IMG/VR virus record: IMGVR_UViG_3300035665_000212
Span: 1-26,179 of that record
Reading direction: 5' to 3' (one strand)
DNA: 26,179 bases
Source: a virus
The notes under the pieces were generated by a model, which saw only the letters and a list, made by a program, of their open reading frames with translations, did not search any database and was not told the DNA's origin. Below are positions 1-25,999 of the stretch, piece by piece. Made by a program: the position numbers and the translations under genes. The stretch's first letter is position 1. Each line of letters starts with the position of its first letter.

Positions 1-1525
1 CTACACCGAAACCTGCGTTTACCGCTTGGCCTCCCATACGAAGCACATCCTCCTTGCGGTAGACCTTGCCAGATGCTACCATCTTCTTGCAGAACTCACG
101 GCTATTGGTCTTTGTAGATTCGGGAGCATAAGCATAACGAACCTTGTACCTCTTGCCTTCTTCAGTAACTCCGTCTTGGCTGCTCTTGGCGTTAGGGAAT
201 GCGCTGCCTGTTGATGCGAATGCGTACTTGCTTAATGCCTGCTCCGCATCGTAGTCAACGGGTCTTTCATCTACAAGCTCCCACTCATCCATATTCACGA
301 CCTCGCCTACTTCTTCTAAAGCAGCAAACGCCTCCTCAAACATCTCATCGCTCGGCTCTTGGCTTGACAATTTAACGCCAGTCTCCTCCTCACGGGTCTC
401 CATATCCATAGGCGTAACTACGTCTTCCGTAAACTCCAAAGGCTGAAGGGTCTTGAAGTACAAGTTTAGGCTGATGTCGTTGTACGCAAGAATCATATCT
501 ATGCCGTCAATGATAATCTCCTGCTTAGGTCGGATTACAAGGTTATCCAAAAGCGTAGATGCGGTCTTTAGTTCATCAGCGTTGTTGCCGAGTCCCGAAT
601 TGTCTTTAATACCCAATAGCATAGGGCTTACGATACGATGCGACACCATTATCTTCTGCGTGGCTTCAGCACTCAAGAATTGGTACTGCTCTGCGGCATC
701 CGATAACTGAACAGGGTCAACCGTTGCAGCAAGGTCTTTGTTATCGTTGAACGCAAGGATAAACTTACCAGAGTTTGAACTACCGCTAAACTTCGTTGCA
801 ATCTGCTGCTCTATGGTTCTGCGTTCTTCTTCACTCGGTACTCCGTTGTTGAAGTTGATAAGCATAGAAGGCGAAAGGCCGTTCTGAATGTTGTTGATGT
901 GGTAGTTGGCAATCTCCTCCTCAAGTTCTGCGTATGGAAGTCCACCTTGATAGTCAACGGGGGAGTAGTAGTAGAATCCTGCTCGGTATGGCTTGATGTA
1001 CAATATCTCCAATCCCTCACGGCTTGTGCCAAATGCAGGGATGCGTACCGCAGTCTCTTTTCTGTTCTTTACATCGTTCCAATCCTTTGCGTAGTAGTAC
1101 GCCTCAATCTCTCCGTCTTCGTTGCACCTTGCAGCTCTCAACGTCTCTACTGGGATGTGCTGAACCTCTACAATCATATTGTGGTCTGCGGAGTACACCA
1201 CTTGAAATGCACATTGCCCCATCATCACATAGTCGGCTACGACCTTCTGCAAGCAGGCTTTCGTGAACAAGCCACGCATCGCTGCGTACTCGCTCGGCTT
1301 CTTGGCAGAGTCCGTTGCATCCAAGCCCTTACCAAAGGTCATATCCATCAAAGAGTTGAGGATGGCGTTATTGGTAGGTGAGCCGTTGTATCGGTCAATT
1401 AGGTAGCCGAAGTAGTCGTTGTTATTTCCGTATTCTACATAGTCCTTGCCCTGCACCTCTTTAACAACAGGTGTGGTGTAGGAACTGAAGTTCACAACGT
1501 GGACTTTAGATGATGATGTACTCAT
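1..1525 (-). CDS. Phage portal protein, C-terminus cut by the window edge
   Basis: An open frame of 508 codons starts at ATG 1525 and runs off the left edge without a stop. The portal forms the dodecameric ring at one capsid vertex through which DNA is packaged. The protein has the look of portal proteins of Bacteroidota phages: an N-terminal stretch with NNDYFGYLIDRYNGSPTN (about residues 31-48), a long alpha/beta core, and a helical segment around SHRIVSPMLLGIKDNSGLGN that resembles the stem/crown region. The core ends near residue 400; after an acidic stretch comes an extra segment starting near KRYKVRYAYAPES with SREFCKKMV and GKVYRKEDVL, which looks like a separate domain appended to the portal. 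The start overlaps the upstream gene by 20 bases. The portal call rests on remembered family patterns and on the neighbouring capsid and protease genes. Its place at the far end of the structural cluster, not next to the terminase, is unusual. Confidence 0.8.
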   Translation of the reverse strand, partial: MSTSSSKVHVVNFSSYTTPVVKEVQGKDYVEYGNNNDYFGYLIDRYNGSPTNNAILNSLMDMTFGKGLDATDSAKKPSEYAAMRGLFTKACLQKVVADYVMMGQCAFQVVYSADHNMIVEVQHIPVETLRAARCNEDGEIEAYYYAKDWNDVKNRKETAVRIPAFGTSREGLEILYIKPYRAGFYYYSPVDYQGGLPYAELEEEIANYHINNIQNGLSPSMLINFNNGVPSEEERRTIEQQIATKFSGSSNSGKFILAFNDNKDLAATVDPVQLSDAAEQYQFLSAEATQKIMVSHRIVSPMLLGIKDNSGLGNNADELKTASTLLDNLVIRPKQEIIIDGIDMILAYNDISLNLYFKTLQPLEFTEDVVTPMDMETREEETGVKLSSQEPSDEMFEEAFAALEEVGEVVNMDEWELVDERPVDYDAEQALSKYAFASTGSAFPNAKSSQDGVTEEGKRYKVRYAYAPESTKTNSREFCKKMVASGKVYRKEDVLRMGGQAVNAGFGV

Positions 1526-12320: not shown

Positions 12321-13487
12321 TTAGCGTATGGCATACCTGCCAAAGTTAGGTCTGCTTAGTTTGTTGTAGGTTGCATAGCGAAGCGCATCTATGGCGTGGT
12401 TGAATGCATCAATGGGGCGATTAAGCAGGTTTCCATTTTTGTCTTCTACCCATTTGTAGTTCTGAAGTTCCTTGATTAGGTTGCTGCTGCGTGGGGTTAC
12501 AAATAGCTTGTGCCGCTTCAGCACGTCAATGCCCACTATGACGCTATCTGCGCCCTTCTGCGTGGGTTTCACGTTCCATCCCATACGATGCAGCTCCTCA
12601 ATAGATTTGGGTTCAGCAGAGTCAGCAAATACCTCCGTACGTCTATCAAGCCCAAGTGAGGCAAGTACGTTGCTGATGTCGGGGTTGGTCATCCCCGTGC
12701 GGTAGATAAGCTCATCCACATAAAGATTGTCACCCGACTTATAGACTGCCACCAATGCGCTTGGGTCATTCGTGTAACCCCAGTCAAGTCCGTGACATAA
12801 GAGCGTGGCATCCGTTGGTATCTCTGCCTGCCCGTATTGAAAGATGGTGGCTCTGCTCATCCCACGTTCTCCGAGTCCGTAGATTCTCCAATAGTCGTTA
12901 TCGGTATCACGTAGCCGTTCTATTTCATTTCGGATGCTGCTATCAAGGAACGGGTTATCAAGGTAGGTGGTCTGATAGAAGTCGCAGTCATCACGGGTCA
13001 CCACCTTATCATAAATCCAATGGAACGCATCCGAAGGGTTGTAGTCAAGGATTGCCCTGTCTTCAGTTCGCATAATAAGCTGCTGCCAATCCTCATACGT
13101 CAGCTCGTTGGCTTCGTTAATGTAAAGTAGGTTGCGCTTGCGCCCTCGTATCTTCTGCGGTTGGTCAAGGCTGATAAACTCCACAAGGTTGCCATTCAGA
13201 TAATACTCGTGGCTTGACCTGTTGTGGTAGCTTTCACTGTACAGGTCGTGGTTGCGCAGTATCTCAAAGAAGTCACGCATCACCGAAGCACGCAGCGAAG
13301 GGAACGTCTTACGGCAGATGGTGATGGTCTTGTTGGTCTCTCGTGTGCTATAATAGAAAATCACCCATAGCAGGATGTTGTAAGTCTTTCCGCTACGAGT
13401 ACCGCCCTGCTCAACGACTATCTTCTTATCGCTGCGCTTTAGGTGGTTGTAAACCTTATTCGTGTAAATCTTCGCCAAGCACCTCAA
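12321..13487 (-). CDS. Terminase large subunit (Terminase_3 / PBSX type)
   Basis: The gene encodes 388 residues. The ATPase domain has the Walker A motif QGGTRSGKT (27-35), a Walker B-like LLYINEANE (120-128) with the catalytic Glu, and the coupling region ILDYNPSDAFHW. The RNase H-like nuclease domain has HGLDWGYTNDPSALVAV with Asp235, VFADSAEP with Asp289 and the C-terminal DAFNHAIDALRYATY with Asp360 and Asp367. The enzyme cuts concatemeric phage DNA and pumps it into the procapsid through the portal. Length is close to that of compact Terminase_3 proteins. The first codon is TTG 13487 (a second TTG lies at 13478); no ATG occurs before residue 70. The start overlaps the small subunit gene by 32 bases. 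Confidence 0.92.
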   Translation of the reverse strand: MRCLAKIYTNKVYNHLKRSDKKIVVEQGGTRSGKTYNILLWVIFYYSTRETNKTITICRKTFPSLRASVMRDFFEILRNHDLYSESYHNRSSHEYYLNGNLVEFISLDQPQKIRGRKRNLLYINEANELTYEDWQQLIMRTEDRAILDYNPSDAFHWIYDKVVTRDDCDFYQTTYLDNPFLDSSIRNEIERLRDTDNDYWRIYGLGERGMSRATIFQYGQAEIPTDATLLCHGLDWGYTNDPSALVAVYKSGDNLYVDELIYRTGMTNPDISNVLASLGLDRRTEVFADSAEPKSIEELHRMGWNVKPTQKGADSVIVGIDVLKRHKLFVTPRSSNLIKELQNYKWVEDKNGNLLNRPIDAFNHAIDALRYATYNKLSRPNFGRYAIR

Positions 13488-13803
13488 TTTGAAATAGCTT
13501 GCCCGAAGATACGTCTAGCTCTTGGCGTTCCACATACCCACGCTTCTTGCCTTTGGTCTTTAGAAAGAAGATAGTAGCGGTGGAGTTGCCCTCCTTTATC
13601 TGCTTGTGCAGTTGGCTCTCTGCAAAGTCAATGGCTACGTCTGATAGTTCTTCGACTGCTGCTTTGTATTCTTTATCCTCTTGCAGCCATCGGTAATGCG
13701 TTTGCCTTGCGATGTCAACGCTCTTGCAAGCGGAGGTCACTACCCCTAAAGATTTCTCCAACGCATCGAGCATTGCCTTTTTATGGATGTCACTACTTGT
13801 CAT
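13456..13803 (-). CDS. Terminase small subunit-like DNA-binding protein
   Basis: The gene encodes 115 residues from ATG 13803, in an ATGA overlap with the ABC/GNAT gene. The N-terminal half holds a helix-turn-helix (VVTSACKSVDIARQTHYRWL, about residues 21-40) typical of phage small terminase or phBC6A51-like helix-turn-helix proteins. The segment EGNSTATIFFLKTKGKKRGY (about 72-91) is a conserved hallmark of the same group. It binds the packaging start site and loads the large subunit, whose gene follows with a 32-base overlap. The C-terminal 20 residues would contact the large subunit. Family assignment is by motif and position. Confidence 0.85.
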   Translation of the reverse strand: MTSSDIHKKAMLDALEKSLGVVTSACKSVDIARQTHYRWLQEDKEYKAAVEELSDVAIDFAESQLHKQIKEGNSTATIFFLKTKGKKRGYVERQELDVSSGKLFQIEVLGEDLHE

Positions 13804-14861
13804 CTAATTTCAAATGATGTTGTTATACGTTGTTTGGATGTTGCACCTTTTAATACACCCGTAGATTCTTTTGTTCTGCCAAATCTTAAGCATCTCCATT
13901 TATCAGATTTCTTCAAAGCGTGAATTAAAGAAGGCGAAGATGTGACTATTGAATATCTATCTTTTTGCTTTTTGTACATCTCACCAATACTTTCAAGCAT
14001 CTTTATTCCGATACCTATGCCTTGATAATCGGGCAAGACAACCAATCTATGTACTTTTTTCATATTCTTTACTTTGGGATGTGGAAAATGGAGAACGCTC
14101 AAGAATGCTGCCAACTGTCCATTTATGTATGCGACAAAAACATTTGCTGCGTTGTTATGCGTGTGACTCAAATAGTGATGTTTAGCAAAGACCTTCCAAA
14201 TTGACTTATCTGCTGCTTGCAATATCTCGAAGTTAATTGATGGTCTATTTTTTTTTTGCCCTTCGTAAGAACGAAAGGTCATTGAATCAGTATCAAATAC
14301 CCAATCGGGCAAGAGCCAATCTTCTATATCAAAATGACAAGTTACTGCTATGAACTGTTTATTGAGCTTTCGTATTGACTTCTGTACTGCGTTGGAACCA
14401 ATTTGCGCAACATTGCGGTCTACTACTGAAGTAAACTCATCAAATACAATTAAGTCTTTATCTTGGAGCAAAGCGTTTGCCAAGTCAACACGCATCTTCT
14501 GACCATTGCTCAATGCCGAATAAGGCTTAAGCCAAGAAGGCGGTGATGAAAAACCAACTGAATTGAATACTGATGTAATTTCATCAACGCTCTTTGACTT
14601 TGGCATATCATCAAGTATTGATTCCGATTCATAGTGAAAATCTGTAATGTATGCATTTTCAAATAGCTCACGAGCTATTGTTGTTTTGCCCGTTCCTGAT
14701 GAACCTACAATGAGACCAACATTCCAAGAACTTGGAATATCAATGCTACCTACAAAATGCTCCTTGATGTGATTTGAGTCAAGGTCAAACTTTCCCATTA
14801 CAGATGCAACACGAAAAGATTTTGAGGGCTTGGACTCCCTTACAATGTCAAAACTCGGCAT
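13800..14861 (-). CDS. ABC-ATPase fused to a GNAT acyltransferase domain
   Basis: The gene encodes 353 residues from ATG 14861. The N-terminal half is a soluble ABC ATPase: Walker A GSSGTGKTT (53-61), signature LSNGQKMRVDLANAL (117-131), Walker B LIVFDEFTS (137-145), D-loop VVDR and the switch histidine in VTCHFD (H176). The C-terminal half is a GNAT fold: KHHYLSHTHN (about 228-237), VAYINGQLAAFLSVLHFPH (243-261) and the acyl-CoA motif RLVVLPDYQGIGIG (272-285). There is no membrane segment, so it is not a transporter. It overlaps the ParB-like gene upstream by 22 bases and the small terminase downstream by ATGA. The GNAT part, with its HY...N start and late Ser/Lys motif, is reminiscent of Mom, the GNAT-fold DNA adenine modification enzyme of phage Mu; this link is inference. 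Confidence 0.85.
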   Translation of the reverse strand: MPSFDIVRESKPSKSFRVASVMGKFDLDSNHIKEHFVGSIDIPSSWNVGLIVGSSGTGKTTIARELFENAYITDFHYESESILDDMPKSKSVDEITSVFNSVGFSSPPSWLKPYSALSNGQKMRVDLANALLQDKDLIVFDEFTSVVDRNVAQIGSNAVQKSIRKLNKQFIAVTCHFDIEDWLLPDWVFDTDSMTFRSYEGQKKNRPSINFEILQAADKSIWKVFAKHHYLSHTHNNAANVFVAYINGQLAAFLSVLHFPHPKVKNMKKVHRLVVLPDYQGIGIGIKMLESIGEMYKKQKDRYSIVTSSPSLIHALKKSDKWRCLRFGRTKESTGVLKGATSKQRITTSFEIR

Positions 14862-15358
14862 TTGTACCCGTCTGATATTAACTGATTATACATCTTCTCT
14901 TGTTCTTCTTCGTTCTCAAGTTCTATTTCTATTCTGAATGCTGATTTGATTTTGTCTGACAAATCGGTTTCATCTTCTGCTTCAAGCACAGGGGTATTGT
15001 CAAAGGGCAGTTCAAGACCCCAATCTTCTAAGGCCTCTACATCCCATTGGTTGGCAAGCAAGTCCCAATCCCATTCACCGAAGCCTACGTTATCCTTAAT
15101 GATAAACTCAGCCTTCTGCGCATCGGTGAGTTGGTCTGCGACAATGATGGGTACTTCCTTCAGTCCTGCGGCTATGCAAGCCTTAAGGCGCATATTTCCC
15201 CCAAGCACTACCATATTGCCATCTACTACGATTGGGCGCAGCTCAAGCATCTGTGGGAACTCCTGTATGGACTTTACAAGCTTCTTGAACTTGTCATCCT
15301 TTATGATTCTTGGGTTTACTGGGTTTGGTATGATTGTACCGATTGCTGCTCTTTGCAT
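14840..15358 (-). CDS. ParB/sulfiredoxin-like domain protein
   Basis: The gene encodes 172 residues from ATG 15358. The ParB-N-like fold is shown by IIPNPVNPRIIKDDKFKKLV (9-28), SIQEFPQMLELRPIVVD (30-46) and VVLGGNMRLKACIAAGLKEV (50-69), which contains the GGNxR(L)KA nucleotide-binding motif. A helical middle (ADQLTDAQKAEFIIKDN) and an acidic C-terminal part follow. Phage proteins of this family are CTPase- or nuclease-like and often lie beside terminase or modification genes. It overlaps the ABC/GNAT gene by 22 bases, suggesting joint production and action. It is not a plasmid partition system: no ParA and no parS-type repeat are visible. The exact activity is unknown. Confidence 0.85.
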   Translation of the reverse strand: MQRAAIGTIIPNPVNPRIIKDDKFKKLVKSIQEFPQMLELRPIVVDGNMVVLGGNMRLKACIAAGLKEVPIIVADQLTDAQKAEFIIKDNVGFGEWDWDLLANQWDVEALEDWGLELPFDNTPVLEAEDETDLSDKIKSAFRIEIELENEEEQEKMYNQLISDGYKCRVLTL

Positions 15359-17797: not shown

Positions 17798-17950
17798 TTA
17801 AAGTTTGGTGTTCCAATAGTATTCGCATTGTCCGTGCTTGATGGGTATGCCAACAAAGAACGATTGGTACATATCCGTAGGGGCGGTGAAGCGGTAGCAG
17901 GTTTCTTTTAGAGGGCAACCTTCGCCTGTGCATTTGGTGATGTCGGTCAT
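17798..17950 (-). CDS. 50-residue four-cysteine protein
   Basis: This short gene starts at ATG 17950 in an ATGA overlap with the PD-(D/E)XK gene and stops at TAA 17800-17798. The product begins MTDITKCTGEGCPLKETC and has cysteines at residues 7, 12, 18 and 42, plus one histidine (39), followed by an aromatic end CEYYWNTKL. The four cysteines with CPxKETCYR spacing resemble a conserved tiny protein of Bacteroidota phages and could form a zinc knuckle. The tight overlap and the regular cysteine spacing make it far more credible than the 77-residue frame on the same strand (17793-18026). Function unknown. Confidence 0.75.
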   Translation of the reverse strand: MTDITKCTGEGCPLKETCYRFTAPTDMYQSFFVGIPIKHGQCEYYWNTKL

Positions 17951-24730: not shown

Positions 24731-24759
24731 ATATTAGCATAAGGACTTGCGTATGTCAA
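24731..24759 (-). promoter_or_regulatory. Sigma-70-consensus-like promoter before the DUF3310-like gene
   Basis: On the minus strand TTGACA (24759-24754) is followed after exactly 17 bases by TAATAT (24736-24731), 20 bases upstream of ATG 24710. The -35 is perfect for the E. coli-type consensus, the -10 matches 4 of 6. This form differs from the TATATTTG boxes elsewhere in the window. Confidence 0.4.
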
Positions 24760-24863: not shown

Positions 24864-24993
24864 TACCAAACAACTTAAAGAAAAAGAAACTAAACAAAGA
24901 AAAAGAAAGAAGTTGCGTTCTAACGCATCCAAATACCTCAAGTCATACACTTATACCATTTTAGTATCTAAGTGCAGTAGAAGCCAAATAAAC

Positions 24994-25401
24994 CTACTCT
25001 ACGAGCTTATCTATCCACTTCTTGATGAAGTACGCAACCACAAGGATAAGCCCAAGCGTAACCGCTGCTCCTTCCAAAGTCCATCCCCTCTGCTTTTTCT
25101 CCTTTGTTAGAATCTTGGTTTGTGTGACTCGGATGGTATCGGGCAAGCACGTTGCCTCAACGTACACCTTTCGGTCTATGTACTGGAGCTGAAGCCTTAC
25201 CTTGTCTTGGTAGATGGTCGTGTCCTTGTAAAGTTCCAGAGTGTCGGTCAGGTACTTTGTCTTGGTGACAATCACCGTGTCCCTTACAACTACACTCTGA
25301 AGGACGGGTTTCACAGTAGCGCAACTGCTAAGAGCCGCAAGAGTCGCAGTCAGCAGGATTGTCCACATTGCAAGTCGGTTGGGGTTTAGTTTCAAGTTCA
25401 T
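24994..25401 (-). CDS. Putative unimolecular spanin (lipoprotein with C-terminal membrane helix)
   Basis: ATG 25401 gives 135 residues; the frame is open to TTG 25416, which overlaps the endolysin stop. The N-terminus is a lipoprotein signal: MNLKLNPNRLAMW, a hydrophobic core, then the lipobox LSSC with Cys27. The middle is strand-rich (SVVVRDTVIVTKTKYLTDTL, QLQYIDRKVYVEATCLPDTI). The C-terminus has one membrane helix (AAVTLGLILVVAYFIKKWID). An outer-membrane lipid anchor plus an inner-membrane helix in one chain is the layout of u-spanins such as T1 gp11, which fuse the two membranes in the last step of lysis. The endolysin gene lies immediately upstream. An ordinary phage-encoded lipoprotein is the alternative. 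Confidence 0.65.
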   Translation of the reverse strand: MNLKLNPNRLAMWTILLTATLAALSSCATVKPVLQSVVVRDTVIVTKTKYLTDTLELYKDTTIYQDKVRLQLQYIDRKVYVEATCLPDTIRVTQTKILTKEKKQRGWTLEGAAVTLGLILVVAYFIKKWIDKLVE

Positions 25402-25412
25402 TGAGCCAGTTA

Positions 25413-25838
25413 TCAAAAGGTGAGGTATTTGGTTTTGCCATTGTGCTTTACTGCTTTTAGAATTTGTTTTCGGTTCTTGGTACTTGAGTAACTAACGTGT
25501 ACCCACGATGGCGCACTATCAGAGCCAAATTCCCAAATGAGTTGGTCAAAGTCTAAATTGTCCTTTATCCAATGAAATAAAACATCATTGCCTGCTTCGC
25601 ACTTTAGGTCGGCTGCTTGTGCTTGCGTATGCTGCGATGTCTTTGCTCCCCCTACTTTGCTATTCACCGCAGGGCTGCGGTATGCACTCGTTACTTTCAC
25701 CGCACCTAAGGCATCTCTCGTGGGTTGTAAGACGTTTTCTGCAAGCGCACGGAGGTTGGGTTCCAGATGCTTGGGTAAAGCGTTAGGAAGCCCTGTTTTT
25801 GTAGCAGTCAGTTCTGCGAGGGTGAAGTTCTTGGTCAC
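25413..25838 (-). CDS. Endolysin, peptidase M15-like
   Basis: The gene encodes 141 residues from GTG 25838. It matches the M15 D-Ala-D-Ala / L-Ala-D-Glu peptidase pattern: TSAYRSPAVNSKVGGAKTSQ leading to the first zinc ligand His70 and Asp77 (HTQAQAADLK), and SWVHVSYS with His114. Upstream is an N-terminal helical part beginning NFTLAELTATKTGLPN. It cuts peptidoglycan cross-link peptides to lyse the cell. No signal peptide or membrane segment is present, so a holin is needed. The spanin-like gene follows (ATG 12 bases after the stop). A 160-base repeat-containing spacer precedes it. Confidence 0.88.
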   Translation of the reverse strand: MTKNFTLAELTATKTGLPNALPKHLEPNLRALAENVLQPTRDALGAVKVTSAYRSPAVNSKVGGAKTSQHTQAQAADLKCEAGNDVLFHWIKDNLDFDQLIWEFGSDSAPSWVHVSYSSTKNRKQILKAVKHNGKTKYLTF

Positions 25839-25999
25839 ATTTTTAATATCAAAAGTTGGACATTTTACACATTATGCTCATTTGAGTTTACACTTTGCAG
25901 TTTTTGCATAGTGCTTAATGTGCATTTAATTGCACAATTTGTAGTCATAATGTACATTAAAACGTACATTAACAGGTAAAGTGCGCCTTAATGCACATT
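25839..25999 (-). repeat. Palindromic repeat region before the endolysin gene
   Basis: The 161-base spacer has no credible gene. It contains AATGTGCATT (25917-25926), AATGTACATT (25949-25958, perfect palindrome), AACGTACATT (25961-25970) and AATGCACATT (25990-25999, the reverse complement of the first). A hairpin GTGCA-TTTAAT-TGCAC overlaps the first. More CATT words continue to 25860. It could be an operator set for lysis or late control, or a protein-binding site. Confidence 0.6.

Follow-up and report, generated by a model that had tools for sequence, protein, structure and literature searches.

PeSL cassettes of T4-type phages are reportedly short, traded intergenic units that carry inverted repeats and are associated with gene shuffling. 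In them, a terminator stem-loop goes with an early promoter of recognisable sequence, and one genome carries many of them. In lambdoid phages, linker sequences are conserved stretches of intergenic DNA at module junctions, with a possible role in recombination. The operators of lambda CI and Cro are sets of short sites related by dyad symmetry, set at fixed intervals close to the start of transcription or translation. REP/MITE-like elements are small, palindromic and non-coding, and are apparently mobile. The intergenic cassette analysed here lies upstream of a phage endolysin gene, and PeSLs are its closest known kind: it is likewise a short, traded intergenic unit with inverted repeats, oriented with transcription. 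The repeat cluster is real and exceeds chance; it belongs to a cassette that is mobile and optional, not to a fixed operator of lysis.

The window is the whole stretch of DNA that we analysed, an IMG/VR virus record of 26,179 bp (G000). Its large ORFs lie on the minus strand and include a large terminase and a helicase-like protein, with an M15 endolysin at the right end. A Shine-Dalgarno-like word is present at 3 of 30 gene starts, which were picked by hand. The host is probably a member of the Bacteroidota: among 1,346 records with a terminase match, 15 relatives were listed, at 37-39% identity, and 14 of them are from Bacteroidales or Flavobacterium phages. The cassette fills the gap between a tiny basic gene and the endolysin, where the initial annotation had placed its repeats (Table 1). 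The ORF that overlaps the end of the endolysin gene found no match in the family search, and by position and our own reading alone it is a candidate Rz/spanin-like protein. A TTGACA-17-TAATAT promoter-like site follows a hairpin that resembles a terminator and has a T-rich tail (24731-24759 / 24914-24927, minus strand). The 24 matches to this site among the fetched loci, some of which overlap, are identical or nearly so, and promoter-like matches in the region are not above shuffles (3 versus 2.6). Site and hairpin probably mark the place where the lysis operon ends and another begins. Elsewhere in the window, a protein that combines ABC-ATPase-like and GNAT acetyltransferase parts (13800-14861, minus strand) is encoded beside a ParB_N protein (14840-15358), and a 115-aa ORF (13456-13803) has, by eye, the look of a small terminase. 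As a guess, the ABC-ATPase/GNAT protein and its neighbours (13456-15358) are possibly a DNA-modification set. A 50-aa cysteine-containing protein (MTDITKC..., 17798-17950, minus strand) matched no Pfam family; at the DNA level it is matched at 72-84% in all five divergent records compared (G001, G002, G004, G005 and G019).

Table 1. Positions of the cassette, its repeat units and the neighbouring genes in the window.
Feature	Position	Strand	Sequence	Evidence or remark
Intergenic cassette, 161 bp, basic gene to endolysin	25839..25999	minus		29.6% GC versus 46% in the window
Core, 81 bp	25916..25996	minus		96.3% identity with 59.7-kb phage G001 of another group
Tail word	25868..25876	minus	CATAATGTG	place read from sequence
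Unit A	25990-25999		AATGCACATT plus, AATGTGCATT minus, GTGCATTA form	motif scan
Unit B	25961-25970		AACGTACATT plus, AATGTACGTT minus; GTACATTA on plus	motif scan
Unit C, perfect palindrome	25949-25958	both	AATGTACATT	motif scan
Unit D	25917-25926		AATGTGCATT plus, AATGCACATT minus	motif scan
M15 endolysin, GTG start	25413..25838	minus		Peptidase_M15_3, E 3.6e-16
Basic protein gene, 42 aa	26000..26128	minus		ORF list
Lipoprotein-like ORF, 140 aa, overlaps endolysin end	24994..25416	minus		ORF list

Direct reading and a motif scan agree with the initial annotation on the units themselves: four 10-base units of the AATGYRCATT type span 83 bp (25917-25999) with centre spacings of 32, 12 and 29, one of them a perfect palindrome and two of them (D, AATGTGCATT, and A, AATGCACATT, on the plus strand) reverse complements of each other. 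Unit B (AACGTACATT) has one mismatch to AATGYRCATT. The form GYRCATTA is common to all four; along the transcript, their succession is A(+), B(-), C(both), D(+). The tail word CATAATGTG, nearer the endolysin, is a candidate for a weaker fifth unit or a -10-like box. The window as a whole holds no excess of AATGYRCATT (5 matches with at most one mismatch, versus 4.7 expected; the extra AATGCACATT lies at 1206, within the long ORF 2-1525), yet the four units cluster beyond chance. Four matches fall within 162 bp of 29.6% GC, where the simulated mean is 0.024 and none of 20,000 first-order simulations gave more than 2, a figure that flatters because the pattern had been fitted to these units beforehand. 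For GYRCATTA, a core form chosen after the units were seen, five of the eight window sites lie inside the element (order-2 simulation, P 0.0002; binomial 5e-10, or 5e-8 with the palindrome counted once). The same form makes clusters of 4-5 per 170 bp in all nine core-bearing genomes examined and of at most 2 in all eight core-less ones.

Relatives keep units A, B and C; the 10-mer of unit D is mostly not kept (2 of 25 aligned sequences), and its ACATTA part is present in all 25. The GTGCATT of unit A is invariant in 29 of 29 distinct cores. Conservation extends outside the palindromes (ATTATGACTACAAATTGTGC), and the most conserved stretch, TGTACATTATGACTACAAATTGTGCAAT, reaches past the first hairpin. 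Units A, B and C are repeated at conserved spacing, as operator sites would be, which is a weak test at a column identity of 94-96%. The site offsets are also equal in the window group and in an unrelated phage group, which adds little since the two cores are 96% identical. Just before CAACTTTTGATATT, a four-base word (25859-25862; A1 columns 147-150) is hypervariable (TGTC, CGTA, CCGA, CCCA, CAGA or CAAA), and variants neighbouring it seem freely combined.

The cassette is modular, and its core is present in some relatives and absent from others. In a sample of close relatives, the best 80 endolysin loci of at least 600 matching stretches, 26 have the core, 23 have a gap of at least 30 bp without it, 20 have touching or overlapping genes and 11 are not measurable, with the core visible in one of these 11. 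A gap of -4, in which the stop codon of the 42-aa basic gene overlaps the endolysin ATG, accounts for 12 of the 20 touching or overlapping loci and thus for 12 of the 80. Gaps of at least 30 bp range from 36 to 745 bp in this sample and are assembled from recurring words. By our own word list, 31 combinations of modules, one of them empty, occur among 74 distinct intergenics; a hairpin module, GTRACAWAT.., was seen by eye and stands outside this count. The word CATAAWGTG is found in the tail of 60 of the 74, and in 10 of these 60 it occurs without the core arm, so that core and tail need not act together. The core is dispensable, since 23 of the 80 loci do without it and still have a gap with other modules. 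The idea of a universally conserved block was rejected because many relatives have no core. Over the aligned part, identity to the window is 81-92% for relatives with the core and 81-88% for those without it. When the 27-base core word was counted with up to three mismatches in 19 records, some of which may be incomplete, 13 carried exactly one core and six carried none.

The core also stands in front of other genes. Its 27-base word matches 74 records, and an endolysin lies within 700 bp downstream of the core in 64 of the 73 newly fetched ones; two records (L090 and L109) end too early to judge the gene behind it. Five others (L085, L098, L123, L144 and L153) carry the core before other genes, and in L098, L123 and L153 it lies upstream of a BT4734-like/DnaB_C primase-helicase-like gene. 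L201, of this primase-helicase group, has similar flanking modules and a different middle. L211 has a primase with 94% identity over the 476 residues present, and no core was found in the 1,500 bp upstream. Therefore, 'lysis regulator', as the initial annotation suggested, is too narrow: many relatives are without the core, and in other phages it precedes other genes. L243 and L244 carry a 5' module of the cassette, and in L243, from another phage group, a homing-endonuclease-like gene (653-1387, minus strand) follows it, with a Pfam GIY-YIG match only below the cut-off. Three records were set aside: L194 and L195, coding-like by eye, which matched a 20-base pattern and had nothing else of the core, and L241, where a 19-base pattern matched in an unrelated context. 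The bacterial and archaeal genome collection gave no exact match to a 36-base or a 21-base pattern, and named phages gave no DNA match at E up to 0.1. Plasmids gave one weak match (45 query bases, Malaciobacter, E 0.04), which we took as chance.

The 81-bp core is shared at 96.3% identity between the window and G001 (59,663 bp), a phage of another kind. With a limit of E 1e-6, the two have just one further DNA match, of 139 bp at 72%, in a comparison for which it matters that the window record is shorter than most of its relatives' records; five window ORFs have protein matches in G001 at 30-46%. Tail-gene DNA, in turn, is common to G001 and 7 of 15 fetched relatives of the window (G006, G008, G010, G014, G015, G017 and G024) at 74-95% identity, for example 320 bp at 95% between G008 and G001; the shared stretch (G001 bases 1-1967) encodes tail-like proteins in G006, by eye. 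Four of these seven relatives are without the core. These phages exchange DNA generally, so the identity of the cassette is not exceptional: the cassette is one of the pieces traded, and its likeness to the G001 sequence could stem from ordinary recent exchange. The phages that share tail-like DNA with G001, with and without the cassette, probably share hosts. A further phage kind (G004 and G005) shares about 1 kb of the lysis region with the window, core included, at 64-67% identity; its endolysin is 58% identical to that of the window, and the terminases match at 25% over about 100 residues. Of 138 loci compared at four-fold sites, 88 were kept (34 had no core, 8 were short and 8 had a stop or indel), 55 of them distinct. 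Across these 55, the difference is 5.3% in the 82-nt core, 16% in the 48-nt tail, 9% at endolysin codon positions 1 and 2, and 27% at endolysin four-fold sites. The core difference is flat across the range of endolysin distances. Such flat, low divergence fits free exchange of the cassette, selection, or both.

We favour, with a confidence somewhat short of even, an optional, mobile and modular control cassette that is traded among phages of related hosts and acts as a multi-site operator or activator array. Its presence or absence at a gene-gene junction, modular build, orientation with transcription, sharing between phage kinds and conserved sequence were observed. In this model, its GTRCATTA repeats (A, B, C, the degenerate D and the tail copy) would form a multi-site array on the DNA, placed upstream of a weak promoter-like tail and a leader, and would give the gene behind its own control. 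The controlled gene in the window would be the endolysin, probably together with the next gene, and in the other group the genes upstream of the primase-helicase-like gene. Phages of related hosts would swap the cassette by recombination, possibly aided by homing endonucleases. The multi-site operator proposed in the initial annotation fits the retention of units A, B and C in relatives and the concentration of GYRCATTA sites in the element.

The same record of exchange could be read without any regulatory role, the block being an inert or selfish palindromic element, or a recombination linker for swapping endolysins and other genes. In L086 and L117, a similar cassette and start region are followed by an Amidase_2 endolysin in place of the M15 peptidase, a case of endolysin replacement at the cassette junction. 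In other relatives, the endolysin junction holds a homing-endonuclease-like gene (L063:3255-3935, PHROG E 4.7e-17) or, by eye, an ORF of about 60 codons (L040 and L056) or a membrane-protein-like ORF (L006 and L065). Core distances unrelated to endolysin distances and the general exchange of tail-gene DNA are also in keeping with a linker. An inert element is not expected, however, to keep one copy per core-bearing record, conservation beyond its palindromes and a single orientation. In all 56 distinct contexts long enough to judge (8 more were too short), the core and the longer downstream frame point the same way; these contexts are mostly the one endolysin junction and so are not independent. 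We regard this explanation as rather unlikely, although it fares better than the other alternatives.

The initial annotation also described the cluster as hairpin-rich. A structured RNA leader, in which unit A pairs with B/C in a long hairpin followed by a second stem, might govern stability, processing or translation of the endolysin message. The sense strand of the window does fold beyond shuffles (-47.1 kcal/mol, z -5.18, none of 200 shuffles as good), with several G-U pairs. Among 63 distinct intergenics 60-290 nt long, the sense strand is the more stable one in 43 (mean z -2.1 versus -1.6). The opposite strand of the window reaches z -2.96, likewise with none of 200 shuffles as good. The hairpins thus stand as a fold, but not as a conserved RNA structure, which we rejected for want of compensatory pairs. 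Two-sided compensation was found in 0 of 46 pairs among 25 sequences and in 0 of 24 and 0 of 11 pairs among 29 distinct cores, in a test of low power at 94-96% column identity in which shuffled letters do about as well. In addition, the 5' arm varies and breaks pairs while the 3' arm is nearly fixed, alleles fold differently (L113 is barely better than shuffles, z -0.73), and Rfam gave no match at gathering scores. Although the fold is strong, the lack of two-sided compensation favours sites at the DNA level, and we consider an RNA leader unlikely.

Against the favoured reading, no consensus promoter was found in 25839-25999 by a sigma-70 scan, nor in or near it by a scan for the Bacteroidota-type TTG-N-TAnnTTTG, and the sole promoter-like feature of the cassette is the -10-like word CATAAT. 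No intrinsic terminator was found in the transcribed direction, the only match being on the plus strand (25919-25936). Among the phage proteins first proposed as binders, the DnaA-like protein is present in all eight core-less genomes of the set compared, which excludes it as an obligatory partner, and it has no match in G001, G002, G019, G020 or G025. Furthermore, no ORF of at least 40 aa tracked the element through eight genomes with and eight without the core, some of them incomplete; the single ORF with an eight-to-none pattern is part of the element's own sequence. That leaves a host factor as the candidate binder. In a more specific form, an approximately 81-bp gene-free control element would be read by a conserved host protein and be common to several Bacteroidota phage kinds, one copy each, before different key genes. 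We hold this form to be improbable, on a par with the RNA leader. If true, either endolysin type, or the genes upstream of the primase-helicase, would come under the same host signal.

A replication origin, partition site or packaging site, bound by a phage protein such as a DnaA-like protein, a ParB-like protein or a small terminase, would suit an AT-rich, repeat-bearing element with a single copy per core-bearing record that lies upstream of a primase-helicase-like gene in group ii. This is very unlikely given that the element is tracked by no ORF and that the DnaA-like protein persists at 88-98% identity in core-less relatives that are themselves 81-88% identical to the window over the aligned part. 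A small conserved peptide (MTTNCAIK...), read from an open frame of 27-30 codons that starts at ATGACTACA in many relatives, is hardly credible, since most differences within it, judged by eye, change the residue, and since the frame stops prematurely in L041, L054 and L119 and has another reading in L082.

Natural relatives with and without the cassette exist, so its effect on lysis timing is directly testable. The cassette could also serve as a DNA probe for the possible host factor, and it suggests a route for endolysin swapping. Among the open-licence papers searched, none was found to describe a cassette of this sort from Bacteroidota phages. Among known systems, the lambda CI/Cro operators resemble it in their dyad-related sites at fixed spacing; here, in contrast, no cognate phage repressor was found and the sites travel as a cassette. 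Unlike lambdoid linkers, the cassette is itself present or absent at one junction and is nearly identical across phage kinds, and unlike REP/MITE-like elements it lies at gene junctions, with a single core per record that keeps one orientation throughout the contexts examined. It shares with PeSLs that it is present or absent, shuffled between related phages and oriented with genes. However, it has no consensus promoter and no sense-strand terminator, and it occurs as one core per record instead of many units per genome. Because three of the four PeSL features tested are missed, we do not file it as a PeSL, even though it would work like a mobile regulatory cassette. Phage modularity is usually told gene by gene; here a non-coding, switch-like unit appears to be traded as a module of its own.
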